Of a DNA stretch of 64,000 nucleotides, positions 2,760 to 24,105 are shown one piece after another. The notes below the pieces were generated by a model, which had not been told where the DNA came from, searched no databases, and worked only from the letters and a program-made list of their open reading frames with translations. Every line of letters begins with the position of its first letter. Position 1 is the stretch's first letter. Source of the DNA: Clostridium sp. M62/1 (GTDB taxonomy: Bacteria > Bacillota > Clostridia > Lachnospirales > Lachnospiraceae); assembly GCF_020736365.1 (NCBI RefSeq), contig NZ_CP085988.1:2486001-2550000 (forward strand), written 5' to 3'. A program made the position numbers and the translations under genes.

Positions 2760-3164
2760 TCAGCCCTCAAAATCATCGTCCAGCAGCTGCACCTTCAAGA
2801 CTTCCTGGATCCCGGCTGGAGATGTTTCCTGTACCAGTCCCGTAAAGGTAATCGAAATGTTGTCACCCTCTTCCAGGTCTTTGGGGCTGATCCTCGTCCC
2901 TCGCCACAGATAAGAGGTCTCTTCCATTACGGGAAATGTAAATCTGCCCCTGAAATTAATATCATTGATCTCCATGCCCTGGACCGTTATGGAACTGTCG
3001 GTAATGTCGGTAATGGCCGCGTAGAACGTCTCGGTCTCATAACTGACTGCCGCACGTTCCATCCGGTCATACGCCGTCTTATATCCGATCAGATATGCTC
3101 CGACAGCAATAAAAATCATTAAAACTGCTGTGCCGGCATAACGCATTGTTTTTCCATTCATCAT
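2760..3164 (-). CDS. Membrane-anchored protein with beta-rich extracytoplasmic domain, 134 aa
   Basis: One N-terminal membrane helix (AGTAVLMIFIAVGAYLIGY) is followed by about 100 residues with the pattern of an OB-like or small beta barrel fold (ITDSSITVQGMEIND, DNISITFTGLV). That layout is like DUF3221/YobA-type envelope proteins, but the identity is not secure. ATG at 3164 or 3161 fits the GGGGTGG ribosome site; GTG at 3170 overlaps it. It is upstream of the small membrane protein on the same strand. Confidence 0.6.
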   Translation of the reverse strand: MMNGKTMRYAGTAVLMIFIAVGAYLIGYKTAYDRMERAAVSYETETFYAAITDITDSSITVQGMEINDINFRGRFTFPVMEETSYLWRGTRISPKDLEEGDNISITFTGLVQETSPAGIQEVLKVQLLDDDFEG

Positions 3165-3217
3165 GTCCACCCCGCTTTTGCGTTTCCTATCCTGATATTC
3201 ACGTCGATTAAAAGCGG

Positions 3218-4225: not shown

Positions 4226-5251
4226 TTAAACTTCCAGTATCCCGTCATCCTGCGCTTGTCTTTTGGAGCCTTTGGGCTGCTTTCCGCTCCGCGCAGACGG
4301 AAGTTCCTCAAAACAGCTGTAAGCGGGATAGAACCTGTAAGGGATGCGGATCCCGACAGCCCCGTATCTCTGTTTCAGTACGCAGACCTCCAGTTCCCGC
4401 GGGTTCTGCCCCTGTGCCTGAAAAACATCAAAGTCCCTGGCCCCGACACCCCTGTACTGCATCCCCAGCACGGTATCGCAGGAATATTCAATGCTCCCGG
4501 TATCCTTATACGATCGGAGGGATACCGGCTGGTCGTAGCTTTCCCGGTTGAGGCTGCTGATCAGGACAACCGGCAGTTTCCTGGAATCACTCAGGGACTT
4601 AAGCACACGTAGGCTTTCATCCACTGCCTGCTTGTCGGTAAGGCTGCCCTTTCCTTCCGGCGCGGCAAGGATCTGCAGGTAGTCCACGATGACCACCGGG
4701 ATAACCCCAAATGCGGATATGTATTTTTCCACATACTGTGCGATGTCCTCCGCGGTCCATGCCTTGGCCCCGCATTCTTCCACCGTGATGGTACGGCTGC
4801 GCTTTTCCACTTTCCCGGCGGCTTCTTCCACGGCCATCCATTCGCGGCCCGTAAGCTTTATAACGGCCGTGCGGCTTCTCAGCTCGCCGGATGTCTTTAA
4901 CAGACCTGCGGATGTTTCATGCCAGTCCATGTAAAGCTGCCTGCTGACAGCCTTTGCCGCCAGATCCACGGGCTTCATTTCCAGGGAAATCACAATCACA
5001 TGGGTCCCCTCTGCTGCCATTTGTTCCGCCATCTGCATCACATAGGTTGATTTTCCCAAGGACGGGACCGCGCCAAGACAGTGAAGTCCGGCAGTCAGTC
5101 CGCCGCCAAGGCACCTGTCCAGTTCCGCGTATCCGGTCGGGCGGCAGGCTTCAAATACGGCGTCATCCGCCTTCCCAATCAGCGCCGCCGCATTGGACAG
5201 ACGCTTCCGCGTATTCCGTTCGCGGAAAACAGTTAAGTCATCGTTAGTCAT
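4226..5251 (-). CDS. DnaB-like replicative helicase, RecA-fold domain only
   Basis: The 341-residue protein begins with a short leader and then matches the C-terminal ATPase domain of DnaB. Walker A is GAVPSLGKST (about residues 60 to 69), HVIVISLEM is the next conserved strand, Walker B is VVIVDYLQIL, and SSLNRESYDQP corresponds to the DnaB switch region. The 150-residue DnaB N-terminal hexamerisation domain is missing, so this is a mobile-element-type helicase and not the chromosomal DnaB. AAGGAG lies eight bases from the ATG. The neighbouring iterons and initiator-like gene suggest it serves replication of this island. Confidence 0.8.
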   Translation of the reverse strand: MTNDDLTVFRERNTRKRLSNAAALIGKADDAVFEACRPTGYAELDRCLGGGLTAGLHCLGAVPSLGKSTYVMQMAEQMAAEGTHVIVISLEMKPVDLAAKAVSRQLYMDWHETSAGLLKTSGELRSRTAVIKLTGREWMAVEEAAGKVEKRSRTITVEECGAKAWTAEDIAQYVEKYISAFGVIPVVIVDYLQILAAPEGKGSLTDKQAVDESLRVLKSLSDSRKLPVVLISSLNRESYDQPVSLRSYKDTGSIEYSCDTVLGMQYRGVGARDFDVFQAQGQNPRELEVCVLKQRYGAVGIRIPYRFYPAYSCFEELPSARSGKQPKGSKRQAQDDGILEV

Positions 5252-7408: not shown

Positions 7409-7452
7409 AGGTCAGTATGTAGGGTACAATCATACAGAGGATGGTATCGCAT

Positions 7453-7770
7453 ATGTATGAAGATTTATTTTACAAACGGCTGGCAGAATTGAGAGCGAAT
7501 AAAGGCGTATCAGCACGGGACATGAGCCTGTCCATCGGGCAGAGTGCCGGTTACATTAATGCGCTCGAAAATCGGAACGGCTTCCCGTCCATGCAGGTTT
7601 TCTTTTATATCTGCGAATACCTTGGCGTCACTCCTGCGGAATTTTTTGAGGAAGGAAACCGGTATCCCGGTGAGTACCAGGAAATTCTGGCGGACTTGAA
7701 GCATCTCGATCAGGCCAGCCTTCAGAATGTGAAGGCAATCGTTAAGGGACTGGCGCATAAGGATAAATAG
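7453..7770 (+). CDS. XRE-family transcriptional regulator, 105 aa
   Basis: A Cro/CI-type helix-turn-helix occupies the N-terminal 65 residues (RLAELRANKGVSARDMSLS, then SAGYINALENRNGFPSM as the recognition region), ending in YLGVTPAEFFEE. The C-terminal 35 residues form an acidic helix pair. ATG at 7453 (MYEDLFYKR) aligns with the start of a paralogue in the IME at 48208. It probably binds the inverted repeat in its own divergent promoter region. Confidence 0.8.
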   Translation: MYEDLFYKRLAELRANKGVSARDMSLSIGQSAGYINALENRNGFPSMQVFFYICEYLGVTPAEFFEEGNRYPGEYQEILADLKHLDQASLQNVKAIVKGLAHKDK

Positions 7771-7942: not shown

Positions 7943-8410
7943 TTATTTCTCTTCTTCCGGCCAATATTCCGGCACTGAATTCTGTGCAATCATGTTATCA
8001 AATATCACTTCCTCCACTACTTTTACGCATTCATCCGTATTTTTTATAATATCCTTTCCCCAAAATCTTATAACCGTCCATCCGAGAAACAGCAGCTGTT
8101 TATTGACCTCATCATCACGTTCTCTGTTTCTGGAAATTTTTTTTATCCAAAATTCTCCGTTCTTTCCATGCTCCAGCTGTGGTTTCAGGATCTCCCAATC
8201 TTTTCCGTGAAAGAACTCACTGTCACAAAATATTGCAATTTTCTGTTTCGTAAGGACAATATCAGGCTTTCCCGGCAAGGCTTCATAGTTTTTTCTGTAT
8301 CTGTACCCTTTGTGCCAAAGCGCCTTTCGAAGGGCTATTTCAATTTTTGTGTTTTTCGAGCGGATACGGCGCATGTTTTCACTGCGTTCAACACTTACGT
8401 TACTTTTCAT
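7943..8410 (-). CDS. vsr: Very-short-patch-repair (Vsr) endonuclease family protein
   Basis: Vsr enzymes nick DNA beside T:G mismatches that arise when 5-methylcytosine deaminates. The 155 residues carry the family's blocks: RIRSKNTKIEIALRKALW near the N-terminus, the catalytic region LPGKPDIVLTKQKIAIFCDS with EFFHGKDW, and KISRNRERD, LGWTVIRFWGKDI. The usual place of W in the FWHGC block is F, and there is no nearby zinc-binding C. It lies 21 bases after the NERD-helicase gene. A repair role alongside the operon's cytosine methyltransferase is likely; an attacking-nuclease role is possible. Confidence 0.88.
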   Translation of the reverse strand: MKSNVSVERSENMRRIRSKNTKIEIALRKALWHKGYRYRKNYEALPGKPDIVLTKQKIAIFCDSEFFHGKDWEILKPQLEHGKNGEFWIKKISRNRERDDEVNKQLLFLGWTVIRFWGKDIIKNTDECVKVVEEVIFDNMIAQNSVPEYWPEEEK

Positions 8411-8431
8411 CTTCCGTCCATTTCCTCCGAA

Positions 8432-10132
8432 TCAATGATGCAGAATAGCGGTACAGTTAAGAAGTGAAGCAAATTCTCTCATGGGTCTTCTGAATTCCCT
8501 TTGTCCCACTGCGTTTTTCATAAAACGGCTACATGCAGCATTATCCATATCCGTCACCACTTCAAGACGCAAACGGGCTCTGGATGCGCCTACATAAAAA
8601 AGAAGAGTGTTCTTCAAAACTGTTTGCTCCGTAAAATCCACCAGTATTACGGCATCTGCTTCAAGCCCCTTGAATTTTCTACAAGTTGTAAAACGGCAAC
8701 CTCCATACGTTCCGAAGGCCGCATAGTTTCCCATGAAGCTGTCCCTTTCCGTTTCAAGCGTCAAAATTACAATGTTCTCAATCCCGGCTTCCTTCAATTC
8801 ATCTATTATGCCATCCACAATTTTTATTTGCGGAACTGAAGCCGCACAGAAATGCAACCTGGGAATTTTCCCTGCAATACTGTTAAGAAAAAGCGTATTA
8901 ATATCCTGCCGGATCAAACTCATGGACGTCCTGCATACATTCTCCGTATTCCGGCAGTTGCGATGCAAGGTCAACTTACAGTCCGCTTCCCTGATAAACT
9001 CTGGAATTTTATCGGCTTGAACTGTCTGGAGCCTGTCGTAGAATACATAAAATGAAGAATCATGATCCGATACAGCCATAACAGCATCATGAAGCAGTCG
9101 AAGAATTCCCGTCTCTTCAATGGCATCCCTACCAAAATCCTGTCCCTCGTCCACAATAACATGTTTATACGGAAAGCTTCCGAAAGCGGCATAATCCTTC
9201 AGTTTTTTTTCGGCCATTCCATAATCGGCACTGGCCGTTCCGCAAAGTCTGCACACATAACCGTCCAGAGTCATGAAATCGATCATGCAATGTCCATAGC
9301 AGGAGATCAGATGTTTTTTAAGTTCTGCGTTGTAGCAAAGAAAAAGGACATGTCCGCCTGCAGCGGCATGACGACGTGCCTTTTCCACCGCAATAAGGGT
9401 CTTTCCCGTTCCAGCGGCTCCGTTAATGACGGCCGTCCTCTGTTCGGAAAGAAAATTAAGAATGCCCGCCTGTTCATTCAGCATCCTGTAAAAGGCCCTG
9501 TGTTTCAAATCCGTATCAAAATTGGCGGAAGGAAATACATTGAATTCAGGGCATAATATTTCCATGATAAGCCTTTCAGACTCATTTTCAGTTAAATTGG
9601 TAATAATCCCTGATCGGACATTCAATGAAAACAGTGCCTCTATATAGGGAAGCGGATTATCAAGCGCTTCGGCACCAAACACAATTGCACGGTCACCCTC
9701 CGGCGGCATGGGAATGGAGTCTATCTGCTCTGCTGAAAGTGACGGCAGCCATACTCCGTGCAAAAACTTTATGCGATCCGCAAGATAGCGGAGCCGACTG
9801 TTCCCGATAAGCTCAATCAGCTTCCATTTATTTGAAGCCGCCTGATTAAACGGACCACCGTTATGCATTGGCTCACCGTTTCCATAGAACCACCGTCCGC
9901 CATGATACGTGACGGCTCCCGCTTTTGCTTCCAGGCAAAGAACTCCCTGCTTCCTGTGAAAAATTACAAAATCCGTCTCACTTTCATAAACGGTCCCATC
10001 TTTTATCCTGGTAATTCTGAAAGAATGAAAAACCGTGTATTCATCCGGAAGCCTTTTAAGAGCTTCAAACATCACATCCTCCAGACTTCCGGGATGAAAT
10101 CTGTTCGGTTTTTCGGGAATCATTACCGCCAT
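8432..10132 (-). CDS. NERD-domain nuclease / UvrD-like SF1 helicase fusion, 566 aa
   Basis: Residues about 14 to 110 form a NERD domain: GSLEDVMFEALKRLP, then ETDFVIFHRKQG and LCLEAKAG supply the D...E-x-K nuclease pattern. The rest is a superfamily 1 helicase core: Walker A INGAAGTGKT (about 235), Walker B VIVDEGQDFGRD, LHRNCRNTENV, and a C-terminal FKGLEADAVILVD and YVGASRARL block. It starts two bases after the drmB stop and is clearly part of the DISARM operon, in the place where DrmC is expected. It could process phage DNA unwound by DrmA/DrmB, which is inference. NERD helicases also occur in other defence islands. Confidence 0.85.
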   Translation of the reverse strand: MAVMIPEKPNRFHPGSLEDVMFEALKRLPDEYTVFHSFRITRIKDGTVYESETDFVIFHRKQGVLCLEAKAGAVTYHGGRWFYGNGEPMHNGGPFNQAASNKWKLIELIGNSRLRYLADRIKFLHGVWLPSLSAEQIDSIPMPPEGDRAIVFGAEALDNPLPYIEALFSLNVRSGIITNLTENESERLIMEILCPEFNVFPSANFDTDLKHRAFYRMLNEQAGILNFLSEQRTAVINGAAGTGKTLIAVEKARRHAAAGGHVLFLCYNAELKKHLISCYGHCMIDFMTLDGYVCRLCGTASADYGMAEKKLKDYAAFGSFPYKHVIVDEGQDFGRDAIEETGILRLLHDAVMAVSDHDSSFYVFYDRLQTVQADKIPEFIREADCKLTLHRNCRNTENVCRTSMSLIRQDINTLFLNSIAGKIPRLHFCAASVPQIKIVDGIIDELKEAGIENIVILTLETERDSFMGNYAAFGTYGGCRFTTCRKFKGLEADAVILVDFTEQTVLKNTLLFYVGASRARLRLEVVTDMDNAACSRFMKNAVGQREFRRPMREFASLLNCTAILHH

Positions 10133-10133
10133 T

Positions 10134-12476
10134 TCATTTCATCCCCTTAATAATCTTCTCCGCTTTCTCCGTATATCCGTCAGGACCATAAATGCATTTC
10201 ATTCCGGCTGCAGACGCAGCATCCCTCCCCGGCTCCTGACCGTAAGAAAAATACAAAATTTTCTGTTCAGGCCAACAGTAATCACACTCCCATTCAGTTG
10301 CGTTTCCTGACAGGGTAAATTTCACATCGCGAAACGGCATTTCTCTTCCTCTGAGCAGACCATTCTCGGTAAGCCGCCTGCTAAATTCACGCTCTCCGTC
10401 CGTTTCCGCAAACTGGAAAATATCCGAAAGAACGGAAGACCAGTCCTCTTCCCTCATATCCGTTCCCGCTACCATGATAAGGCTCCCGAATTCCGGATTA
10501 TTTTCCTCCATCCTTTTATCTGACAAATTGCCCTCACATGCTTTCCAGCCCGCATTTTCATAAAGCTGTTCCCGGAAAAAACCAAGTTTCCTGTTCTCAT
10601 ACGTTCCCACAATAACTCCCCTGTCAAGGAACACATTGAATTCCTCGCAGCAGGTTTCCGGTAAAAGTCCGCAGGAATAACATGCGGAAAGATTCAGAGA
10701 ATCCCTTCCCTGTCCGCTGCTGAGCAGACAAATCGGATCATTGGAACATGTGACGGCGGATTCCACTGCTTTTTTATATATCCGCGGAAACGTGTCATAC
10801 CTTCCCTGCCGTACAAGGCCTCCAAGTGTTCCCTCCGAATCCCCGCTGGCAGTATAAATCAAAATCCCGGCCATTTCTTTTCCCTCAGACGCCTCTCCGC
10901 AATAAATTCGTTCCTTCAGCGAGGATATATTGTACCCGCATTCAAAACTTAACTGCTTGATAAGCAAATGAGACATTGTGTGCAGCAAGAGGAATTTTCC
11001 GGTAATTCTCCTTGGATGCTGACTTCCAAGAAAAGAATTATTATAGTTTTCCTGAAGAATCCGCACACGCTTTTCCAGGGCTGTATTTCCACTGCGCCAC
11101 GCATTTATCACGTCATTATCAAATTCAATGAAAATACCCTCACCGTACACGTTATACCCCGGATACCATTCCGTCTCTTTCTCTTTTGCGGAAACAAACC
11201 TGTCGGATTTTGTTCCTATCATTGATGCGGGGAATGGCTCCATTCTTGAAAATCCCAACAGCACCTGAACTTCCCGTATTTTTTCTATAAGGGAGATCTC
11301 CTTTACAAATGGGATGTCATATCGGGCAATATCCGTCGGCACGCGCTTAAAGTCATCATATTTCGTGCCCTCCACGGATGCTCTCCCGGAAAGCGCGTCA
11401 AATTCGGCCGCGCGGTATTCAATGCTTCCCGTATCATAGTTAACCGCATTGTCCGGAAGCAGGCGGCGTTCAAGAATTTCTTTTACCTGTCCTTTCTCGC
11501 AGCCAATATTGTCGGCTATCTTTTTTGAGTAGTCTTCAACACTTGACAAAATGTTCTCTTCCATCACCTCAGTGGGTATTCCCCTCATGGTCCTTATCGT
11601 TTTTATTGCATTTCTGAATTCATCGTACAGCCTGCTATCCTCGATTTTTCGATTAATTATATTTGAAAACGGTGGAATCACAAGGGAACTCGCGGTTACC
11701 GGGAAATATACCGATGAGCTTCCCCTCTGAAGCACCTTTGGATACAAGCCGCAGTCTTTATCCCTTACCCCTTTCCACGGATGTCCTCCGTCACACGTAA
11801 AATTGTATTTTCCAGGATACTTTTTATCCAGTTTTTCGAATTCCCCTTCATTAAATGCACCGTTCAGGGTTGTTGCGGCACCGCAGGTTCTGCACCTTAA
11901 ACTGAGGCCTTCCAGGCCTTCCGAAGCTACGGGACTGGTTTTAAACTCCAGGCAGGGATTCTCACAGACATCCTTAGCCCCGCCGAAATTTTTGGCATGT
12001 GTCCATTTTACCCACGGAAAATCATTTATATGTCCATGCTCGCAAACCGTAATGATTCTTGCCACCACCAGCTCCACATGATCCCTCGGGCATCTCAGCC
12101 TGCGGCTCATATCGGGATTGTTAACTTTATCCCTTTCCTTCGTCTGACTGTTATACTCCGCAATCCATTTCGAAAGCGGTTGAAATCGGCGGCATTTCGG
12201 GCAAAAATACCATTCGGGAAAACGGGCATATGAAATTCCGTCACGATTCTTGCCTCCGGCCGGCATCCCAAAATACCGCACTCCGAGGGATTTTTCCAGA
12301 CGTTCATCGTGAATTGGGATAACCTCATCCTCCCAGTATTCCGGTGCCGCGGTCATCAAAGTCTGTGACGGAAAATCCACCATCGCGCCAACGCCGTACT
12401 GCAGTACCGCCTGTGCGGCACGTACCGAGTGCGATGTTGAATTAAGCCTGATTTTTTCAATTGACCTTACGTCCAT
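10134..12476 (-). CDS. drmB: DISARM protein DrmB (DUF1998), 780 aa
   Basis: The N-terminus IRLNSTSHSVRAAQAVLQYG and VGAMVDFPSQTL are typical of DrmB. Several C-x2-C pairs are visible (FCPKCRRF, LRCRTCGA, and later SACYSCGLLPETCCEE), with LLHTMSHLLIKQL and FECGY of the DUF1998 domain around residues 505 to 530. DrmB works with the DrmA helicase and is a core DISARM component. ATG at 12476 has GGAGGG about nine bases upstream, inside the end of drmA; the two genes are only two bases apart. Loss of this gene should abolish defence if the family parallel holds. Confidence 0.85.
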   Translation of the reverse strand: MDVRSIEKIRLNSTSHSVRAAQAVLQYGVGAMVDFPSQTLMTAAPEYWEDEVIPIHDERLEKSLGVRYFGMPAGGKNRDGISYARFPEWYFCPKCRRFQPLSKWIAEYNSQTKERDKVNNPDMSRRLRCPRDHVELVVARIITVCEHGHINDFPWVKWTHAKNFGGAKDVCENPCLEFKTSPVASEGLEGLSLRCRTCGAATTLNGAFNEGEFEKLDKKYPGKYNFTCDGGHPWKGVRDKDCGLYPKVLQRGSSSVYFPVTASSLVIPPFSNIINRKIEDSRLYDEFRNAIKTIRTMRGIPTEVMEENILSSVEDYSKKIADNIGCEKGQVKEILERRLLPDNAVNYDTGSIEYRAAEFDALSGRASVEGTKYDDFKRVPTDIARYDIPFVKEISLIEKIREVQVLLGFSRMEPFPASMIGTKSDRFVSAKEKETEWYPGYNVYGEGIFIEFDNDVINAWRSGNTALEKRVRILQENYNNSFLGSQHPRRITGKFLLLHTMSHLLIKQLSFECGYNISSLKERIYCGEASEGKEMAGILIYTASGDSEGTLGGLVRQGRYDTFPRIYKKAVESAVTCSNDPICLLSSGQGRDSLNLSACYSCGLLPETCCEEFNVFLDRGVIVGTYENRKLGFFREQLYENAGWKACEGNLSDKRMEENNPEFGSLIMVAGTDMREEDWSSVLSDIFQFAETDGEREFSRRLTENGLLRGREMPFRDVKFTLSGNATEWECDYCWPEQKILYFSYGQEPGRDAASAAGMKCIYGPDGYTEKAEKIIKGMK

Positions 12477-12478
12477 GC

Positions 12479-15400
12479 TTATTTTCCCTCCTTCCAATTA
12501 ATAACGCTGCCCGGAACCATGACATCGACGTTTCTCATGGAAGTCATTGTCTCAAATGCCGGATCATCACGGAATGTTCCGAATGTCTTCATCAGGCGTT
12601 GTCCCGGACCATCGGGGCCTTTCAACATAAATTTCTTTCCGTAACAAAAACCTTCTTCTGCCTCCTGAGCAAGTTCCTCCCATTTTTTCAGGATTTCCTT
12701 CATTTCCGAACGTATCGCTTCGGAATCATCCTCCATGTATGGATTTATCCTCCGATTGATGTCCGCACAGCGTTCCGCAATAAAATCACAGATTTTGTTG
12801 ACGGTTTCGCCGTATTCCTCACACCGGAATTTGACCGCATCGTTTTCCCCGCACAATAACTTTTCGGAAAGCCTTATGTATGCAATCAGTACGGCATGAA
12901 GGGCTCTCTTCCTTGACGGTCCCGAAAACGGGGTCGCCCCCGTCGGTTCCACATGCCGATAAAAGGATTCGTGATAGGAACGAAACTGTTCATAATGTGA
13001 CCGATCCCTGCTCTTCCCCCCGTCATACATGACAAATGCCACACCGGGATATTCGCGTCCCACGCGGCTGGATGCCTGAATGTACTCACTCGTAAGTTTT
13101 GGCTGTCCGACAATCAGCATTACGTTCAGCCGGGCCACATCTATTCCGACTGAAATCATGTTCGTTGCAAGAAGAACATTGCATGGATACGGCGGCATAC
13201 GTTTTTTTATGCGCTCCGTCGAATAACATACCTTTTCCAGCTTGTCCAGAGTATGATTCAACTGCGTTGTGGTCACACGGCTTGTCAACTCATCGGCCGT
13301 TCCAATGCTTCTTACCTCTGCACTGGAGCGGAGGCGATAACACATTCTCTTCATGAAGTCCTTAACGTCATCATCCACCATCGTTGCGGCTTTTCCAAGA
13401 TCCTTAAGACTGTTGTAATAGGCAGTCAACGTCCAGAATTTATCTCTAACCTCATCCGGCAGATCCATGTCCTTTGCTTTTTGGAGCATTGCCGCCATGG
13501 CCCTGATTTCCATCATGGCCTTTGTCTTTCCCGAAGGCATAAGTCCGACGTATTTTCTCCCGAACACCTCATGCCCGTAATCAATTTTGGATTCCCTGGC
13601 AAAAAATGAATCCTCCGCATCAAGCGCCGGAGCCGGAAACTGGCTGACATCCCGGTCGTACAGAGCCGCGCATTGCTCAACCGCATGCCTGATCGTTGCA
13701 GTCGATGCCACGATTTTCGTGACATTTCCTTTCCGGCGGCAAAGGGCGTCTACGGCGCTCTCGTAAAGTCCCACCATTGTTCCCAAGGGTCCGGATATAA
13801 GATGCAGCTCGTCCTGTATGATAAGCTCTGGAGCCCTGTTGTCATTTCCAAGCGCAAAGAAATTCCCGATCCTTTCATTCCAAGGAAGCATGGCAAACTT
13901 ATCAACGGTTCCAAAAAGCAGCGTCGGCGGATCCCTGTAAAGTTCATCATCCACAACCTGAACCGGGAGTCCAGCTCCGAATTGGCAGCTCTGTCTCGTG
14001 CAGAAAAGCTCAAATCTGTTTCCACCACGCATTCTGTAACCGAATTCGCCCCGGATTTTCCCCTTTGAATCCGTTTCCCTTACCATCCTCGTCCCACACC
14101 ATGGACATTTCAGAACCTGAAACTTATTATGAGTCTCCTTGGCATATCCCAGGCTGTTCTCCGTCGCGGAAGTTAATTTTTCCAAATGTATTTTTGCCTT
14201 TTTCGACTCATTCGGCGTATGATCCCCGCCGATCCAAAGTCCTATTGTAATCGGTGTCTTTCCCAGCGTATATACCGGGTAACGCGGATTTTTCGCACAG
14301 CAATCCTTTCTGATTACTTCACATGCACAGATCAGTGTTGAAGCCCTGGTAAACTGCTGAGCGGCAAGAAGTCTGAGCGTATATCTCATAATGACCGATG
14401 TTCCGGCACTCTCCTTCGGATAACGCAGACGTCTGTAAAAAATTGTCATTGCAGTAAGACCGAGATATGCTTCCGTCTTTCCTCCTCCGGTAGGAAACCA
14501 TATCAGATCCACCACGGATCTGTCCCTTGATTCCTCGCTGGTAACCGATGCAACATCAAGGAGCATAAATGCAAGCTGAAACGGTCTCCATGCATACCTG
14601 TCTTCCGGGAATTCCGTATCTGCAGTTCGGTAATCCAAGCTTTTCAGTACACCGGACAATTCCTTCTCATCCGGGAAGGTTGACGGCCATTTTCTCTGTA
14701 TGACAAGCTGAACCCTCTGCATAAACATTGCCCGGTTTGCCAGCTGAAATGCGCTCCATGCCCTGTCGTTGCTCTCAAGTATGGCAACTCCGTTCCGCAT
14801 CCTTTCGCATGCAGCACGACATCCTTCAAGATTTCTCTCTGCCACCGCCTTAAATCGATTCTCCAGATTTCCTATGCGCTTGCAAAGTCCGTCAATCCAT
14901 GCTGAATAGGAGCTCACAAGACTTGTTAAATCTCTTATTTTCAGTTCTTTGCCGGTATCGTCAAGATCGGAAAGATACTTCATGGACAGTGTTCTCTTGT
15001 CAACCCCGCAGTTTTCAGGGAGATTAAAGTCCATTGACGGCACCTCCGCCTCCGGGAAAAAGTCATTTCTGATGACCCCCTCTCCCTTTTCGTTAATATT
15101 CCAATTTACGGCCGTCCCAAGACCGGTTCCGTACACATGTTTGTTTCTGTATTGCAGTTCCAGGGACTTTTCTTCCTCATCAAGAATATTAAAGTCGGCA
15201 GTTCCGGCATATTCAATAAATTTAAACTTATTGTCGGATGTGTCAATCTTAAGTTCCGGCTGAAATACGCAGTTCTCACCCGTGGCATATCCCGTTCTCT
15301 TGTTTACCAGCATGATCGTAAGGGATGTACTTCCGTTCTCCATTTCCCTCCGAAGGGCGGTAATGCCTACCAGATCCGAATCCAGATTTTCCGCACATTC

Positions 15401-16177
15401 CACATAATCAGAGTTTCCAAACCGGATAACAACATCATGATATTCGTGCGGCTCCCTGACATGTCCTCTTTTCAGTTGATCCGCAAGTTTATACATATTA
15501 TCGATGATATGATCGTCATCCGTGTCCAAAAGATCCCGTTCCTTCAGTTTTCTTACTTCTCCCCGGTTAAACCCCCTGCACATTTTCAGACACTTTTCAG
15601 AATTATCATAAACAATGTATGATGATATCTCTTCGGGTACGGCCCAACCGTCCGGCCGTGCAAGAACAAATGGAATCCTGCAGTCCGTCAGCCGCGCTTT
15701 CCTGTATGTACCATATTTAACGGACATTCGTACAGCATCCGTGTCGCCCTTAACAAAAAAGGAAATTCCAAAGGAAGACGGCATGTTTTGGGCCGCAAGG
15801 CTTACTTCCTCATCCAGATTGTCCTCCGAATCGGGGTCATCATCCGCATCATCACTTTTGTCCTGTTTTTCCGTTATGTCCGCTTTTCTTTCAACATTGT
15901 CTTCCGGTTCTGCCACGGTTTCCTCGTCACTCATTTCAAAATCATCTGCTGCTTCATCCTCCTCGGAATCGCGGTCAACATCCCCGTTATCCGCTTTTAC
16001 CCTGTTTCCCTGGGGAAAGAGTATTCCTATGGAATATCTTTTTTCCGGAGAGGTGGTTATCAGTTCATGTTCCGCATCCGGAACGGAAACCTCGGAACCG
16101 GGACCCAGCAGTTCATTTCTTACCAGGGAGATAAATTCATCCCTTGCGCCAAGCATCTCACTTTTAACACTCATCAT
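12479..16177 (-). CDS. drmA: DISARM helicase DrmA, 1232 aa
   Basis: This large SF2-type helicase carries Walker A WFPTGGGKTEAYLGL (about residue 570), the DExH box LIIQDELHLISGPLG (about 795), motif III VASTATIR and the C-terminal helicase motif YIQASSRVGREYPG (about 1070). An acidic low-complexity stretch around residues 60 to 130 (DRDSEEDEAADDFEM) separates an N-terminal region from the core. Four cysteines (LKCPWCGTRM, ELFCTRQSC) may bind zinc. It is the size and arrangement of DrmA. Its start overlaps the stop of drmE as TAATG, so translation is coupled. Confidence 0.87.
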   Translation of the reverse strand: MMSVKSEMLGARDEFISLVRNELLGPGSEVSVPDAEHELITTSPEKRYSIGILFPQGNRVKADNGDVDRDSEEDEAADDFEMSDEETVAEPEDNVERKADITEKQDKSDDADDDPDSEDNLDEEVSLAAQNMPSSFGISFFVKGDTDAVRMSVKYGTYRKARLTDCRIPFVLARPDGWAVPEEISSYIVYDNSEKCLKMCRGFNRGEVRKLKERDLLDTDDDHIIDNMYKLADQLKRGHVREPHEYHDVVIRFGNSDYVECAENLDSDLVGITALRREMENGSTSLTIMLVNKRTGYATGENCVFQPELKIDTSDNKFKFIEYAGTADFNILDEEEKSLELQYRNKHVYGTGLGTAVNWNINEKGEGVIRNDFFPEAEVPSMDFNLPENCGVDKRTLSMKYLSDLDDTGKELKIRDLTSLVSSYSAWIDGLCKRIGNLENRFKAVAERNLEGCRAACERMRNGVAILESNDRAWSAFQLANRAMFMQRVQLVIQRKWPSTFPDEKELSGVLKSLDYRTADTEFPEDRYAWRPFQLAFMLLDVASVTSEESRDRSVVDLIWFPTGGGKTEAYLGLTAMTIFYRRLRYPKESAGTSVIMRYTLRLLAAQQFTRASTLICACEVIRKDCCAKNPRYPVYTLGKTPITIGLWIGGDHTPNESKKAKIHLEKLTSATENSLGYAKETHNKFQVLKCPWCGTRMVRETDSKGKIRGEFGYRMRGGNRFELFCTRQSCQFGAGLPVQVVDDELYRDPPTLLFGTVDKFAMLPWNERIGNFFALGNDNRAPELIIQDELHLISGPLGTMVGLYESAVDALCRRKGNVTKIVASTATIRHAVEQCAALYDRDVSQFPAPALDAEDSFFARESKIDYGHEVFGRKYVGLMPSGKTKAMMEIRAMAAMLQKAKDMDLPDEVRDKFWTLTAYYNSLKDLGKAATMVDDDVKDFMKRMCYRLRSSAEVRSIGTADELTSRVTTTQLNHTLDKLEKVCYSTERIKKRMPPYPCNVLLATNMISVGIDVARLNVMLIVGQPKLTSEYIQASSRVGREYPGVAFVMYDGGKSRDRSHYEQFRSYHESFYRHVEPTGATPFSGPSRKRALHAVLIAYIRLSEKLLCGENDAVKFRCEEYGETVNKICDFIAERCADINRRINPYMEDDSEAIRSEMKEILKKWEELAQEAEEGFCYGKKFMLKGPDGPGQRLMKTFGTFRDDPAFETMTSMRNVDVMVPGSVINWKEGK

Positions 16178-18771
16178 TAAATTCCTCCCTCAAGATCCAG
16201 CGGTCTGTTTGTCATATACGCCGGCACCGTTTTATCCAGCTTTACAATACTCTCAATTCGAAGAATTACTGCAAGCGTGTCCAACCTTTCCTGAACTTCC
16301 GGAGGAATCAAAGTTCCCGTCACGTTTTCTCCCTCCAGTCTCCTAATAATGGCTGTACCGAGTTCCTTTAAAATACTCTTACGAACCTTTCTTATGTATT
16401 TGCATGCTTCAAAATATTCCGAAGCATGGTCAAACATTTCCGTGTCGTCAGTCAAAAGAGCGATCTGTTCCAGATTTTCGGGCTTCTGCGGTCCTACCGT
16501 ATGGATATCTTCGTTAAGCCAATTTTTTATGGTGCCTGGCTGAACGGCGGTACCATTTGCAATCATTTCTTCCGCGATCCGCTGTGGAGTTTTTCCCGTC
16601 CGTTCCATGTACGCAGAAAGATCATTTTTCCATCGCTTGGACATCTCATAATTTTTTTCCGTTTTTCCCCCCGTTACGTCCGAACGGATTATCTCATTCA
16701 GTATGTAATCCACTATATCCTTTGTGTTATTATCCCTGTTCATAAATACCATGCTGTCTCCCGGACGTAGGGCGTCAATTTCCTTTTGAACCACTTCATC
16801 CTTTTCCTCATTCAATACGTATGCCTTGTAATATTGCGTAAGCATGGCACCTTCCCCGTCTTCAAATCTCACCAGCTTTGAAACATCTGCCGACGGAGCA
16901 GATGAATCCCCATTTTCCCGATGAACCATGGCTTCAAACTTTATTCGGATAACCTCTTCGGTATATCCAATAATTTCTTCGTCAGACCGGTTAACCTCTT
17001 CCTCTTCGCACATCAGTTTCTCATCCGCCGAGTCTTCTTCTGCCATCTCTTCGGAAAGGCTCTGTCTTGCATTAAAAAGTTTGTCCTTTCCCAATCCCCT
17101 TCTTTTTCTTGCCCGGAAAACCGCAGCTTCCGGTTCATAAAGAAGAACCGTTATTTCCGCCGCAGCCGTACAGCAAAACACGTCAAAATGCCTTCCTGTG
17201 ATATTCCCGACAAGCAGAATACCGTCATATGTACGGCTCCCGTCAAATCGATTTACGGAAACAACCTCAATTCCGGAATAATCCCTGTCAAAATCGCTTA
17301 GGACATATTTCCAAATCATGTCCGCATAATACGCCTTCGGGACAATAATCGCCAGTTTTTTTCTTCTTCGCGTTTTGACATACTGCCTTACACGGTCCAT
17401 CTTCGGAGAACCGTCGCTCCTGACATAATACATGTTTGTCAGGATTTCCATCATCTTCTTTCCGACATTCCTGAGATTATCCGGTAAAAGCTCAATCTTT
17501 CTTTCCAATTCCTCCAGTCTGTCCGCAGGATCATCAACCGCTATTTTTCCGTCATGAATCTCCTTTTCAAGTTCATTGATCGAAAACGGTGCCGTCATGA
17601 AAAGTTTCATCAGTGACCACGCCGGAATGACTATATCCGCCTTCTCGCTTTCATCCAGCTCATCCTGTCTGATCAGACGAACGGCAAATTTAAAATCCCT
17701 GTAATCCTGCCAGCTTATTTCGCCCGGAAGAATTTCTGTCCTTATTTCCCGATCAATAATCGCCCCCGTCTGCCGCTCCAGTTCCACCGTAAATTCATTC
17801 CTGTTTCTTGGCGGAAGCGTGTTTTCCAAAAGAAAGTCCTTCGTACACGCAAAAACTCCCGCTTCCCGGTAAGCAGAAACAAGTTCTTCCCCTTTTGAAA
17901 AATCCATCCCGCCAATCAAAAAAGCAAAATCCAGGCTTTCCCTGTTCATAACCTGCGGAATTTCCGTGATCCCGCGCTCTATCAAATCGTTCCCGCACAC
18001 CATTATTCCAAGATGGCTGTTTCCTTCCGTCTCGTATGTCATATTCAGTCCGACGGAAACACTGGATGTGAATTTAAGCATTGCCTCGTTTTTCCCGATA
18101 TTGCCCCCATAATGATATTCTTTTTCCTCTGTAAAGTAGGAAGCCGTCACGAGATCCAAAATTTTAATTTTTTTACTTCCGGAACAGATCTCTAAACCCT
18201 TCATGTACCGCCCCGCTCTGTGACGGTCCATGACAATGATAATGGAGGCATCAGTGATTCCCGGTATGTCCTTTCTGTCACATTCCAGTATTTCGGCAAG
18301 AAACTCTTCTCTCGCCCCATTTCCCGAACGGATTCCGCGGCCGTCATATCGATTGGAACTTCCCTGATAGGGCATAATCGCCGCCCAGCTTTTTCTTCCG
18401 ATTTTTTTAATGCTTGAACCGCCCTGCCCGATAACCGCCCATTCCTTTCCTTCACTATCCGTTTCAATCCCGCGAAATTCACCGCGTTTTCTTTCGTAAA
18501 GAACGGGACTTCCAGGCGAAAGAGAACGAACAATCCCATCCACATCGGTACCGTTACCCCAAATGACCGCAAAGGCCGCCCATACAATGGCTGCCGCATC
18601 AAAACATGGTGATCCCACATGCAGAATAATACTGCCCCTGTTCTCCCCTTTCCCAGCTTCCCCGGACAAAAATGCTAAAAAGGATTGGAGAATGAGTTCT
18701 TTGGAAATAATCTGATTTTCCAAATATATATCACACTTTTTTAGACTTCTGTTCAGATCTTCTACATTCAT
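16177..18771 (-). CDS. drmE: DISARM protein DrmE, 864 aa
   Basis: DrmE is the component that marks class 2 DISARM. The protein has no classical Walker motif. It starts with a region like an inactive helicase/transferase fold (SIILHVGSPCFDAAAIVWAA), has alpha/beta blocks (LAIIVPKAYYADMIW, YDGILLVGNITGRHFD), an acidic linker at about 610 to 650, and a C-terminal helical domain (KRWKNDLSAYMERTGKTPQ, GTIKNWLNEDIHTVG) resembling a helix-turn-helix. Length and position next to drmA agree. ATG at 18771 is preferred, 11 bases from AAGGAGG; a GTG at 18783 overlaps that site. Naming rests largely on context. Confidence 0.75.
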   Translation of the reverse strand: MNVEDLNRSLKKCDIYLENQIISKELILQSFLAFLSGEAGKGENRGSIILHVGSPCFDAAAIVWAAFAVIWGNGTDVDGIVRSLSPGSPVLYERKRGEFRGIETDSEGKEWAVIGQGGSSIKKIGRKSWAAIMPYQGSSNRYDGRGIRSGNGAREEFLAEILECDRKDIPGITDASIIIVMDRHRAGRYMKGLEICSGSKKIKILDLVTASYFTEEKEYHYGGNIGKNEAMLKFTSSVSVGLNMTYETEGNSHLGIMVCGNDLIERGITEIPQVMNRESLDFAFLIGGMDFSKGEELVSAYREAGVFACTKDFLLENTLPPRNRNEFTVELERQTGAIIDREIRTEILPGEISWQDYRDFKFAVRLIRQDELDESEKADIVIPAWSLMKLFMTAPFSINELEKEIHDGKIAVDDPADRLEELERKIELLPDNLRNVGKKMMEILTNMYYVRSDGSPKMDRVRQYVKTRRRKKLAIIVPKAYYADMIWKYVLSDFDRDYSGIEVVSVNRFDGSRTYDGILLVGNITGRHFDVFCCTAAAEITVLLYEPEAAVFRARKRRGLGKDKLFNARQSLSEEMAEEDSADEKLMCEEEEVNRSDEEIIGYTEEVIRIKFEAMVHRENGDSSAPSADVSKLVRFEDGEGAMLTQYYKAYVLNEEKDEVVQKEIDALRPGDSMVFMNRDNNTKDIVDYILNEIIRSDVTGGKTEKNYEMSKRWKNDLSAYMERTGKTPQRIAEEMIANGTAVQPGTIKNWLNEDIHTVGPQKPENLEQIALLTDDTEMFDHASEYFEACKYIRKVRKSILKELGTAIIRRLEGENVTGTLIPPEVQERLDTLAVILRIESIVKLDKTVPAYMTNRPLDLEGGI

Positions 18772-18793
18772 TACATTCTCCACCTCCTTCTTA

Positions 18794-20209
18794 TTAGACG
18801 TTCACCGCAAAATGATTTTTCTTGTTTTCCAGTTCATATCCACGTTTTTCTCTCCTGATACAGCCAGCCTGCTTAAGCCTGTGAAGAAAATTATATGCTG
18901 TCATCTGTGATACTCCGAGAATATTGCTTATGTCCTGCGCACAGAATTCATTTGAAACGCCCAATTCTGACACTATCCTGCAACATTTTTCAATTGTTTG
19001 AGGTCTGAGATTTTCTTTTAATGTTTCCTGAAGTTCCAGACACATTTTCAGCTGAGGTCCGGGAATCTCATATCGTCTCTTCTCATCTTCCGAAAAGGCA
19101 GCAGTCATAACAACTATGCATTTCTTAATAAACAGAGCCATTTCTTCTATAAGAGGTATCGAAACGGAATTGCCAAACTGTTTGAATTTTTGCTGATTCG
19201 ACATGTTTTCTGGAAAGGAAAATCCCTCATTTCCATTTTCATCAAGAAAAGCATAGCCGATAAATCCCTGCAGTCTTCCCCATTCCGCAGGCGTCATTGT
19301 TCGGATATATTTTTCGTTGATCGGAGATTTTTTCCCTTTTACATCCATCCCCGCATATTTTTTTCCGTTGATCGGATCATAAATCAGATTTCTTTCTTTT
19401 CCAGATCCTCCAGTGGCAAGAATCGTGCTTGCAATCGGGCACTCAATTTCCGTAGCATTGGCTATCCTACATCCGAAACCGTTCCCGTTTCTCTTCTGCC
19501 TTGCTTTATGCTCTTCCAGTGTTTTCAATAAGCCTGATGACAGAAAGAATCTTTCTGATACGTCAACGTCAAGTATATCCCTTACAGACTTAAATATCAC
19601 TTTTTCACTTTTTTCCGGCGTTCTTTCCGGAATGAGTTTCAAATGTTCTCCAAAATAATTTCTGCTGAATGCCACAATATATACCCTTGGTCGGTTTTGA
19701 GGAAGACCAAAGTTTCTCGTATTACGTATAAATGAGGATTTATCGTATGACAGTGTTCCGTCTGTTTTCCGTTTTACTCCGATCACATGATAATTTAGTT
19801 CATTCTCTAATGTATTGATTATTATTCGAAATGTTCTTCCTTCATCGTGGCTGACCAAATTCTCAACATTCTCCAAGAAAATGGCCTTGGGCATTGTCTG
19901 CTCGATAATCCTGGCAATATGAAAAAAAATAGTTCCCTTTGTTATATCTTTAAATCCTTCACGTAAACCTATTTTACTGAACGGTTGACAAGGAAATCCT
20001 GCCAAAAGTACATCATAATCTGTTCTGCAGACAAGTTTCCGGAACTCGTCATTTGTAACATCGTTCCGTGCGTCATCACCAAACAGGTGTTCATAAGTCT
20101 GACAGGCATATTTATCTATTTCCGCAGAGAGGACATTCTCAAAGTCCCCGGCCAGTTCAAATCCTCGCCGTATTCCTCCGATTCCGCTGCACAAATCTAT
20201 TGTACGCAT
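18794..20209 (-). CDS. drmMII: DNA (cytosine-5) methyltransferase with C-terminal winged helix (DrmMII-type), 471 aa
   Basis: The catalytic domain is complete: motif I MRTIDLCSGIGGIRRGFE, motif IV GFPCQPFSKIG with catalytic Cys, motif VI ENVENL, motif VIII QNRPRVYIV, and FGNSVSIPL of motif X. A target-recognition region lies between about 215 and 300. Beyond residue 395 there is an extra segment ending in a winged helix (CRIVSELGVSN, DISNILGVSQMTAYNFLHRL, KQAGCIRREKRGYELE). In DISARM it methylates host DNA to mark self. The added DNA-binding domain may regulate the operon or target the enzyme. First gene of the operon; a palindrome stands upstream. ATG at 20209 follows AGGAGG-like sequence by 11 bases. 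Confidence 0.9.
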   Translation of the reverse strand: MRTIDLCSGIGGIRRGFELAGDFENVLSAEIDKYACQTYEHLFGDDARNDVTNDEFRKLVCRTDYDVLLAGFPCQPFSKIGLREGFKDITKGTIFFHIARIIEQTMPKAIFLENVENLVSHDEGRTFRIIINTLENELNYHVIGVKRKTDGTLSYDKSSFIRNTRNFGLPQNRPRVYIVAFSRNYFGEHLKLIPERTPEKSEKVIFKSVRDILDVDVSERFFLSSGLLKTLEEHKARQKRNGNGFGCRIANATEIECPIASTILATGGSGKERNLIYDPINGKKYAGMDVKGKKSPINEKYIRTMTPAEWGRLQGFIGYAFLDENGNEGFSFPENMSNQQKFKQFGNSVSIPLIEEMALFIKKCIVVMTAAFSEDEKRRYEIPGPQLKMCLELQETLKENLRPQTIEKCCRIVSELGVSNEFCAQDISNILGVSQMTAYNFLHRLKQAGCIRREKRGYELENKKNHFAVNV

Positions 20210-20537: not shown

Positions 20538-20768
20538 ATGCTAACAGCAAAATTATTTGAAAACGAAGGAAGTCAAGCAGTTCAATTACCGCAGAGTTGT
20601 CGATTTACTGGCAGTGAGGTATTTGTGAGCAAAATCGGCGACATTGTAGTCTTGACTCCCCAAAATAGTCATTGGGTTGGATTTCTCACCAGCCTAAACA
20701 TGTTTACGGATGATTATATGGGAAACGGGCGAATGCCAATATTATGTCAAGAGCGTGAAGAGCTTTGA
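20538..20768 (+). CDS. VapB/VagC-type antitoxin (AbrB-like), 76 aa
   Basis: The protein starts MLTAKLFENEGSQAVQLPQS and continues FTGSEVFVSKIGDIVVLTP, the swapped-hairpin AbrB/SpoVT fold of VapB-type antitoxins, then a C-terminal toxin-binding tail (WVGFLTSLNMFTDDYM). GAGGTGATG precedes the ATG. A PIN-domain VapC gene would be expected to overlap its 3' end, but none is intact there, so it appears to be an orphan. Divergent from the DISARM operon. Confidence 0.8.
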   Translation: MLTAKLFENEGSQAVQLPQSCRFTGSEVFVSKIGDIVVLTPQNSHWVGFLTSLNMFTDDYMGNGRMPILCQEREEL

Positions 20769-22370: not shown

Positions 22371-22566
22371 ATTCCCCACCTTATAATCTGCCTTCATCCT
22401 TTATCCGATCTTATCTGCGGCTGCCTCCTTGAGATAGTCTTTATTATACACCCACAAAATATTTTTGTGTTGAACCTGCAATTCACTTTAAACGGATTTT
22501 TTCCGTAAAAAGGACCAGACCATTCACAAACTGCGAACAGCCCGGCCCTTTATACCTAAAACATAG

Positions 22567-22860
22567 TTCCGATATAAATGTAAAAATTTTTTCGTGCCAG
22601 ATTGCTATAATTCCTTTTCCTTTTTTGGAGCGCTTAATTCCCTTGTAAATGTAAAAAAATCACGATTCTGATTCCGATATAAATGTAAAAAATCCTTTTG
22701 GCATCAGACTCTCATAATTCCTTTACAAATGTACATTTTTCTCTTGGAATCCTTATTTTATAAGGCTTTCCAAAACCGGTAGTTCCGATATAAATGTAAA
22801 AAAATTCAGCTTTCCGACTCGCATCATTCCCTTTAAATGTCTTAAATTCCCTTATAAATG
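22567..22860. repeat. Threefold degenerate ~110-bp direct repeat, gene-free
   Basis: TTCCGATATAAATGTAAAAA occurs exactly at 22567, 22672 and 22783 (spacing 105 and 111). Each copy is followed about 65 bases later by a second related motif, ATTCCCTTGTAAATGTAAA or variants ending AAATGTAC or AAATGTC. Between them lie similar CT-rich spacers. No gene is present from 22,398 to 22,860. Function unknown; it separates accessory DNA from core genes. Confidence 0.7.
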
Positions 22861-24105
22861 TCAATCAACATCCTGCCCAACACTCTCCCCCGCCAGATGT
22901 CCCGTAGACCACGCAATCTGAAGATTAAATCCTCCCGTCACAGCGTCCAGATCCAGAACCTCCCCTGCAAAGTAGAGTCCCTTTACCTTCTTCGACTCCA
23001 TGGTGGAGGGATTGATCTCCTTCACCTGGACGCCTCCCTGGGTGATAATGGCCTCGCCAAATCCCCGAAGCCCGTTTAAGGTCAGGGTAAAGCCCTTAAC
23101 AGAGGCTGTCAGGCGTCTCCTCTCTTCCCTGGTGATCTCGTTGACCGGCTTCTCCGGGGCAATGCCGCTTCGCTCGATGATCACGGGTATCATCTTGGAG
23201 GGCAGAAGGCGGTTCAGGGAATTTTTGAACTGTTTATTCTTCGCCTCTTCAAAATCCCTGAGGATGCGGGCGTCGAGCTGCTCCTCGGAGAGGGCCGGCT
23301 TCAGATCGATGGTCAGTGTCAGGTTCCCTTTTTTCAGCTCCTTTGCCGCATAGCTGCTGGCGCTTAAAAGCACAGGGCCGCTGACACCGAAATGGGTAAA
23401 CAGCATCTCCCCAAAATCCCGGTAAATCTCCTTTTTCCCTCTCTTTACAGAGATCCCGATATTTTTGAGAGCCAGCCCCTGCAAATCCTTCACCACATCC
23501 TCCTCTGTGGTAAAGGGAACCAGCGCCGGCGAAAGCTCTGTCACCGCGTGCCCCGCTTCCCTGGCGAACCGGTAGCCGTCACCGTCAGAACCAGTTGTCG
23601 GATAAGACATGCCGCCGGTGGCCACTATCACCGCATCAGCATAAACTTTTTTCTTCTGGCGCTCTAAAACGACTCCCCGGCAGACGCCGTCCTCAATTAA
23701 AAGCTCCTTTACCGGCTCCTTCAGGCAGATCTCCACATCCAGATCCTTTAAGATTTTCGTCAGCGCGCGGATAATATCTGAGGCCTTGTCCGACTGGGGA
23801 AACACCCGGCCGCCCCTCTCTGTCTTCAGATGACAGCCTGCCCCTTCCACAAGGGCCATCATATCCTGATTCGTAAATCCATAAAAAGCGCTGTACAAAA
23901 AACGACGGTTGGTCACCACACTGTCAAACAGCGTTTCCATATCGCAGTCGTTTGTCACATTGCAGCGCCCCTTGCCTGTGATATAAATTTTTTTCCCGAG
24001 CTTCTCATTTTTCTCATAGATGACAGGGCGGCAGCCGTTTTGCGCCGCTGCTGCCGCTGCCATCATTCCGGCGGCTCCTCCGCCGATTACAATTACATGC
24101 TTCAT
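22861..24105 (-). CDS. BaiN/HI0933-like FAD-dependent oxidoreductase, 414 aa
   Basis: A Rossmann FAD motif opens the protein (VIVIGGGAAGMMAAAAAAQ), followed by LGKKIYITGKGRCNVTN, which is diagnostic of the HI0933/YhiN flavoprotein family, VIVATGGMSYPTTGSDGDGY, and GLYFAGEVLDLDAVTGGFNL near the C-terminus. Length is normal. BaiN, a member in bile-acid 7-dehydroxylating clostridia, reduces bile-acid intermediates, but most members have no proven substrate and no bai operon is present here. A single cytoplasmic core gene on the minus strand. Confidence 0.88.
   Translation of the reverse strand: MKHVIVIGGGAAGMMAAAAAAQNGCRPVIYEKNEKLGKKIYITGKGRCNVTNDCDMETLFDSVVTNRRFLYSAFYGFTNQDMMALVEGAGCHLKTERGGRVFPQSDKASDIIRALTKILKDLDVEICLKEPVKELLIEDGVCRGVVLERQKKKVYADAVIVATGGMSYPTTGSDGDGYRFAREAGHAVTELSPALVPFTTEEDVVKDLQGLALKNIGISVKRGKKEIYRDFGEMLFTHFGVSGPVLLSASSYAAKELKKGNLTLTIDLKPALSEEQLDARILRDFEEAKNKQFKNSLNRLLPSKMIPVIIERSGIAPEKPVNEITREERRRLTASVKGFTLTLNGLRGFGEAIITQGGVQVKEINPSTMESKKVKGLYFAGEVLDLDAVTGGFNLQIAWSTGHLAGESVGQDVD

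Follow-up and report, generated by a model that had tools for sequence, protein, structure and literature searches.

The stretch analysed here, 64,000 nucleotides (nt) of Clostridium sp. M62/1 (GCF_020736365.1, NZ_CP085988.1, positions 2,486,001-2,550,000 of the forward strand; hereafter the window), carries six tightly spaced genes on the minus strand, running from 20209 down to 7943. They encode a C5 methyltransferase, a DrmE-family protein, DrmA, DrmB, a NERD nuclease fused to an SF1 helicase (the NERD-helicase) and a Vsr-type endonuclease. Sequence comparison leads us to regard this as probably an anti-phage operon of the DISARM family and of a DrmC-less type, with the NERD-helicase as its DNA-degrading subunit. 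A literature search, with most subscription papers outside its reach, found no description of this arrangement.

An earlier note on this DNA had proposed these six genes, and their existence, order, tight spacing and strand are all borne out by open reading frames (ORFs) and by PADLOC, Pfam and NCBIfam profiles, from which the following assignments were made.

18794..20209, minus strand: C5 methyltransferase (DrmMII-type) with a C-terminal winged-helix-like stretch; PF00145 232 bits, PADLOC MTase_II 270 bits and DrmMII 181 bits
16177..18783, minus strand: DrmE-family protein; NF038316 DrmE_fam 693 bits over its full length, Pfam DrmE_C 56.6 bits (cut-off 27)
12479..16177, minus strand: DrmA, YprA-family SF2 helicase; PADLOC DrmA 710 bits, NF038325 931.6 bits (cut-off 950)
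10134..12497, minus strand: DrmB, DUF1998/MZB protein, long form; NF038324 429 bits (cut-off 240), matched by the solved DrmB 7s9v
10134..10625, minus strand: C-terminal extension of DrmB, predicted degenerate PD-(D/E)xK-like domain, core at about residues 675-787
8432..10132, minus strand: NERD nuclease fused to an SF1 (UvrD-type) helicase; PF08378 and PF13538 above cut-off
7943..8410, minus strand: Vsr-type endonuclease; TIGR00632 126.5 bits (cut-off 97.85)

The NERD-helicase and long DrmB

A scan of genome contigs with the single DrmE sequence found no relative, and an alignment of the DrmE family, run against GTDB genomes, yielded 36 loci (loci are numbered L), which were sorted by mechanical ORF calling and by hidden Markov models (HMMs) built from the window proteins. 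Six of them end at contig edges (L025, L027, L031, L040, L045 and L051). In 14 of the 36, a long DrmB of 779-791 amino acids (aa) is followed directly by a NERD-helicase. In thirteen others DrmB measures 614-623 aa and the fetched stretch shows no NERD-helicase; the same holds for the more distant L043, L046 and L052, whose DrmB has 635-639 aa. Counting the window, NERD-helicase and long DrmB co-occur in 15 of 15 loci, and neither is found in the 16 short-DrmB loci. The NERD gene starts -1 to 4 nt from the DrmB stop in all 15. In all 29 family members aligned, the window's included, the catalytic E-x-D-F...E-x-K residues of the NERD domain and both Walker motifs (A and B) are intact, and both activities are therefore plausible. 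The top PADLOC profile for the window protein is RTasNERD-Hel (162 bits). A sequence search of the NERD-helicase alignment against solved-structure sequences gave no match, and a search of viral contigs returned seven loci at 23-34% identity.

The long DrmB exceeds the solved DrmB in length, since 7s9v aligns to residues 24-642 of its 787 and thus leaves a C-terminal extension of about 145 residues. We predict a degenerate PD-(D/E)xK-like domain in this extension, homologous to the C-terminus of DruE-type YprA helicases. Alignment to two DruE tails by hhalign gave a probability of 42.6 at first and of 96.5 with a 53-row set (53 used from 120 DruE-type proteins listed, of 824 found). The catalytic E-x-K of PD-(D/E)xK nucleases is absent at the expected place in all 15 extensions. 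Against 24 Vsr proteins hhalign found nothing (probability 0.1), and a sequence search of the extension against solved-structure sequences gave no match.

In the NERD-helicase tree, the 15 proteins from long-DrmB loci form one clade (100/100), and their nearest kin are the NERD-helicases behind DruE in L095 and L100 (99/93); the remaining DISARM NERD-helicases fall in two other parts of the tree. A constraint that unites all 25 DISARM NERD-helicases of the tree in one clade is rejected (p-AU 1.9e-30), as it is with a smaller set of 19 (p 1.9e-8); the constraint groups were named by context, although a first tree had already been inspected when the first test was run. For the sequences compared, this rejection implies several separate recruitments of a NERD-helicase to DISARM loci. 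In the DrmA tree, made by a quick method, a branch (93) has all six DrmC-positive rows to one side of it. Of the 15 long-DrmB rows, 13 cluster, joined by the truncated L027, while the L030/L036 pair falls elsewhere with weak support; several long branches call for caution. The tree holds 53 of 56 rows, L135 (same genome and search score as L015) and the contig-cut L134 and L128 having been dropped, and only DrmAs of 900 aa or more had entered the collection. L027, which breaks off inside DrmB, was labelled as having neither NERD-helicase nor DrmC, a label that its truncation does not justify, and L015 was assigned to the NERD group by hand.

We also searched for DrmA in 398 genomes spread evenly over the phylum (numbered G), 15 of which carry it. 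With thresholds set at 200 bits (NERD-helicase) and 25 bits (DrmC), same strand and within 9 kilobases (kb), a NERD-helicase is present in six of these, five by script (G000, which is the window, G009, G080, G119 and G209) and G153 by inspection: here the NERD gene (303 bits) directly follows DrmE but, although on one contig with DrmA, is over 9 kb away from it, and the gene extends past the end of the fetched stretch. DrmC is found in four (G325, G344, G348 and G361), neither gene in three (G327, G357 and G386), and G033 and G331 were unscored as their contigs end. At these thresholds no genome of the 15, a small sample, has both.

The pairing of NERD-helicase and DISARM genes in DrmC-less loci recurs on plasmids of Rhizobium, Azospirillum, Shinella, Rhodococcus and Deinococcus. 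Seventeen plasmid records match the NERD-helicase, and at least nine of them also match DrmA among the 40 of 85 DrmA-matching records listed. Six were opened (H52, H57 and three DrmA-sharing records were left out). The NERD-helicase lies directly behind DrmB in Azospirillum L137, Rhizobium L138 and L141 and Shinella L139, and directly before DrmA in Rhodococcus L136 and Deinococcus L140; in L139 and L140, NERD and UvrD_C_2 score above cut-off. Neither HMM nor tblastn found DrmC in these six loci. In the three other DrmA-sharing records, some of them likely near-copies, the NERD-helicase is about 2 kb from DrmA by coordinates.

The same module stands directly behind DruE genes in four loci, L095 and L100 from the window's phylum and the alphaproteobacterial L145 and L146. 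In the latter, on plasmids of Leisingera and Paracoccus, the NERD frame lies 3 nt behind or overlaps by 1 nt the DruE-type helicase (DruE1 profile, 1528 and 1430 bits). Since the NERD-helicase is found in several contexts, we regard it as a module that serves in more than one setting, with YprA-type helicases as one class that recurs. We did not count SF1 helicases or fragments that reached 18-60 bits with the NERD-helicase profile (L011, L077, L095, L127, L128, L130, L131 and L133).

Several loci show related arrangements. A TmtA-like protein is directly followed by a NERD-SF1 helicase in L104 and L143. L127 (7497-12654, minus strand) holds a DISARM-like operon in which DrmA is preceded by an Hsp70 homologue and a second UvrD helicase, and DrmB is followed by a NERD-helicase. 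In a Tsukamurella plasmid DISARM (L080, 4270-7515), DrmA comes directly after a RelA/SpoT-domain protein and a UvrD helicase. On a Burkholderia plasmid (L144, 8935-18320) a NERD-helicase abuts opposite-strand DrmA and DrmB fragments, apparently a decayed DISARM. In L130 (3984-6065, minus strand), a DrmC-carrying DISARM is followed by a fusion of a ParE-toxin domain and a UvrD helicase that resembles ArmD of ARMADA type II.

DISARM components and DrmC

Class 2 DISARM comprises drmE, drmA, drmB, drmC and drmMII. The window operon resembles it in combining a C5 methyltransferase, DrmA, DrmB and a DrmE-family protein, as the earlier note had read it; the profile search it proposed gave significant matches for both DrmB and the DrmE family. 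It differs in having no DrmC, a DrmE of another subfamily, an extra C-terminal domain on DrmB, and an added NERD-helicase and Vsr.

Among the core components, DrmB is a separate gene adjoining DrmA and matches 7s9v_B (E 7e-80). DrmA scores just below the NF038325 cut-off and is accepted as the core DrmA; its GGGKTE and DELH motif residues are kept across 13 aligned DrmAs. The methyltransferase qualifies as the DrmMII of class 2, with the generic PADLOC MTase_II profile outscoring DrmMII. Its ORF is open to 20266, and we retained the start at 20209 because the length of its relatives in L017-L019 (470-471 aa) fits. Residues 434-481 give TrmB/MarR/Crp-like helix-turn-helix (HTH) matches under Pfam cut-offs. 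The DrmE-like protein belongs to the DrmE family, for which NCBI already has a name (NF038316, cut-off 80); it is not the canonical DrmE of class 2, as it scores 56 bits with the class 2 equivalog NF038323 (cut-off 250). We predict an SF2-helicase-like fold for it, comprising two RecA-like parts, in which the inferred Walker A position lacks a lysine; a sequence search against solved-structure sequences gave no match. NF038323 was above cut-off in 0 of the 398 genomes, which left no canonical class 2 locus to serve as a reference.

The earlier note was right that the operon holds no DrmC. We found no such phospholipase-D (PLD)-type nuclease within 1-30000 of the window, whether with a combined HMM of two reference DrmCs (L079 and L083) or by tblastn with five DrmCs. 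The NCBIfam profile DrmC_I matches 135 of 299 genomes, none above cut-off, and gives four sub-cut-off matches in this genome, two of which on inspection are frames of 479 and 510 aa far from the window. This profile is too broad, and we therefore used DrmCs annotated in plasmid records (L079 and L083, the latter with drmD) together with L130-L132. With phmmer, one single reference matched a 136-aa ORF at 2760-3170 (13.9 bits, E 0.0014) and the other did not; the ORF has no Pfam or PADLOC match. Among the NERD-positive DISARM loci, tblastn found DrmC in 0 of 26. ORFs with a PLD motif by pattern alone (796 aa in L013, 786 aa in L014, 123 aa in L041 and 564 aa in L129) were rejected, as the DrmC profile matches none; those of L013 and L014 lie near their operons, and that of L129 is a transposase. 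A weak DrmC-profile match in L022 (19.4 bits), to an incomplete ORF situated 1.6 kb past the NERD gene, was likewise rejected, tblastn giving no match.

Around the operon, a divergent 75-aa ORF (20541-20768, plus strand) without Pfam match presumably resembles a VapB/AbrB-type antitoxin, and an HTH_19 regulator (7441-7770, plus strand) is convergent with the vsr end. Six copies of a non-coding repeat of about 26 base pairs (bp) lie upstream at 22564-22869, beside a HI0933-like gene (core TTCC..TATAAATGTAAA, 69-100% to the reference, spacing 34-71 bp). A protein with a DnaB-like helicase C-terminal domain (4226-5251, minus strand), whose neighbours have no Pfam match, may mark a mobile-element edge. 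A promoter scan gave 36 matches, near expectation (shuffled mean 28.3, standard deviation 5.0), and Rfam had no match in 1-30000.

Vsr and the C5 methyltransferase

By its TIGR00632 score the endonuclease belongs to the Vsr family. Of the catalytic and zinc-ligand residues of E. coli Vsr (1cw0), it keeps the PD-motif aspartate along with one histidine, while the second histidine is replaced by D and the zinc-ligand stretch HHHHCY is absent.

Vsr is encoded in 14 of the 15 NERD-positive long-DrmB loci; in the exception, L026, no Vsr gene precedes the methyltransferase, and the contig breaks off within the NERD gene. Of the 14 Vsr genes, 11 immediately precede the methyltransferase and three, those of the window, L017 and L018, stand at the 3' end. 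Three of the 16 short-DrmB loci also have Vsr (L037, L043 and L052). Over all 24 Vsr-bearing loci, the Vsr gene directly adjoins the C5 methyltransferase in 17 and does not in seven, the window among them. Because Vsr is found with DrmC, without a NERD-helicase and beside the methyltransferase in most loci, we consider it probable that it is the mismatch-repair companion of the C5 methyltransferase and not a substitute for DrmC. The positions in L132, right behind DrmC, and in the window, after the NERD gene, add nothing to this reading.

The earlier note had placed both the NERD-helicase and Vsr in the position of DrmC. What holds is a DrmC-less DISARM-family operon with a recurring NERD-helicase; the share given to Vsr does not, as Vsr occurs in the DrmC-positive L083 and L132 and in the NERD-negative L011, L037, L043, L052 and L125. 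Replacement is also too simple a term for the NERD-helicase: sixteen DrmE-family relatives have neither DrmC nor a neighbouring NERD-helicase, which is therefore better described as an addition within a DrmC-less lineage. Relatives without NERD-helicase and vsr, which the earlier note had named as evidence against it, exist in the sister group, while the window's own long-DrmB group is NERD-positive throughout.

Proposed mechanism and alternatives

For the window itself we infer all activity, methylation-gated defence included. As known for its family, the C5 methyltransferase would mark the host genome, and Vsr would repair the T:G mismatches arising from deaminated 5-methylcytosine. DrmA-DrmB would load on unmodified single-stranded or 5'-overhang DNA and translocate; such loading and translocation are reported for Serratia DrmAB in PMC9142583. 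The NERD-helicase would be recruited to DrmAB, in this lineage probably via the degenerate PD-(D/E)xK domain of DrmB, and its SF1 motor would unwind or resect while the NERD domain cuts, as the constant co-occurrence and the intact motifs suggest. DrmE, with a P-loop-less predicted SF2-like fold, may act as a non-hydrolysing DNA-binding or regulatory scaffold.

Several observations weigh against this scheme. The NERD-helicase may be an optional add-on, since sixteen DrmE-family relatives do without it, and the full coupling between NERD-helicase and long DrmB reflects few evolutionary events. Structural matches of the extension alone are weak. Other NERD-positive DISARM loci have no DrmB extension, and hhalign detects no homologous domain in the DruE proteins of L145 and L146, both with a NERD-helicase behind them; docking through the extension is therefore not general. 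Moreover, a NERD-helicase search of the 398 genomes at E 1e-30 gave at least 11 matches in nine genomes, among which only the window's adjoins DISARM, two lie behind DruE (L095 and L100), one follows a TmtA-like protein (L104) and seven stand elsewhere; these counts are lower bounds, as no more than three candidates per genome were scored and five DISARM-linked genes were missed (L012-L015 and L127).

Such findings lend some weight to the view, to us unlikely, that two neighbours are seen here: a self-sufficient DrmC-less DISARM (methyltransferase-DrmE-DrmA-DrmB) and a separate small defence module that hitchhikes behind it. The relatives that do without the NERD-helicase fit this view, as do NERD-helicases in other contexts, behind TmtA-like proteins (L104 and L143) or by other genes (L096-L099, L101-L103 and L142). 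PMC9142583 describes DrmC itself as dispensable and frequently absent, and calls the route to DNA degradation in such cases a mystery. The fixed place of the NERD gene immediately 3' of DrmB, its complete coupling with the DrmB extension and the separate recruitments beside DrmAB or DruE argue otherwise. We give still less credence to a backup or self-directed (abortive) effector that fires only when DrmAB fails. ARMADA, with a corresponding SF1 helicase, acts directly and without abortive infection according to the preprint PMC12458937, which speaks against this role; on the other side, a backup role is proposed for the NERD domain of BREX PglW in PMC12839542, and the slot behind the core of the DrmC-carrying L130 holds a toxin-like arrangement, the ParE-UvrD fusion. 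That NERD-helicase and Vsr jointly replace DrmC as the cutters of a class 2 DISARM, as the earlier note held, appears very improbable. The lack of DrmC, the presence of both genes in the operon, the near-constant presence of Vsr in NERD-positive long-DrmB loci (the contig of the fifteenth ending inside the NERD gene) and its place after the NERD gene in the window, L017 and L018, or after DrmC in L132, are outweighed by its presence in DrmC-positive and NERD-negative loci, by its preferred place before or beside the methyltransferase, and by the absence of DrmC across the wider lineage irrespective of NERD status.

Recruitment of the NERD-helicase to DrmAB, the reading we prefer, has counterparts in other systems. 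In ARMADA type II (ArmA-ArmD), described in PMC12458937, a YprA-family helicase similarly precedes ArmD, an SF1 helicase that bears an N-terminal effector domain and is required for defence; this effector is a RelE-like RNase domain, not NERD, and the YprA helicase of ARMADA is one protein. That preprint describes TALON, which also joins a YprA-family helicase to a NERD nuclease; there, however, the nuclease comes with TOTE components and an RNase H-fused YprA, and the system is reported as extremely rare and largely from Chloroflexota. The DruE loci L095, L100, L145 and L146 share the NERD-helicase immediately behind a YprA helicase; the NERD-helicases of L095 and L100 group with the window clade, and L100's kin carry the homologous C-terminal domain on the YprA protein. 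They differ in that the YprA helicase is fused, that neither DrmE nor a C5 methyltransferase was recognised in the stretch read, and that L145 and L146 lack the domain by hhalign. PADLOC RTasNERD-Hel and C3a187 (NERD and UvrD) have the same protein architecture as the window NERD-helicase but are labelled as DRT or candidate proteins, not DISARM.

Tentatively, and with less confidence than in the operon itself, we suggest that the YprA-type antiviral helicases of DISARM, Druantia and ARMADA may share a rule, in which an SF2 sensor-translocase works with an SF1 helicase bearing an exchangeable N-terminal effector, here a NERD nuclease and in ARMADA and the DISARM locus L130 a RelE/ParE-like domain. 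In the lineage of the window, the SF1 nuclease-helicase and its dead-nuclease dock would then have moved together from a Druantia-type helicase onto DrmB, giving a chimeric DISARM that needs no DrmC, with DrmE as a dead SF2 scaffold.

In sum, a NERD-helicase gene that recurs only a few bases away from DrmB in operons lacking DrmC offers a concrete candidate for the DNA-degrading enzyme, open to a clean genetic test. Among the DrmA-bearing genomes of our small sample, the NERD-helicase stands beside DISARM in 6/15 and DrmC in 4/15. The predicted shared C-terminal domain and the related NERD-helicases would link DISARM to Druantia-type systems by module exchange.

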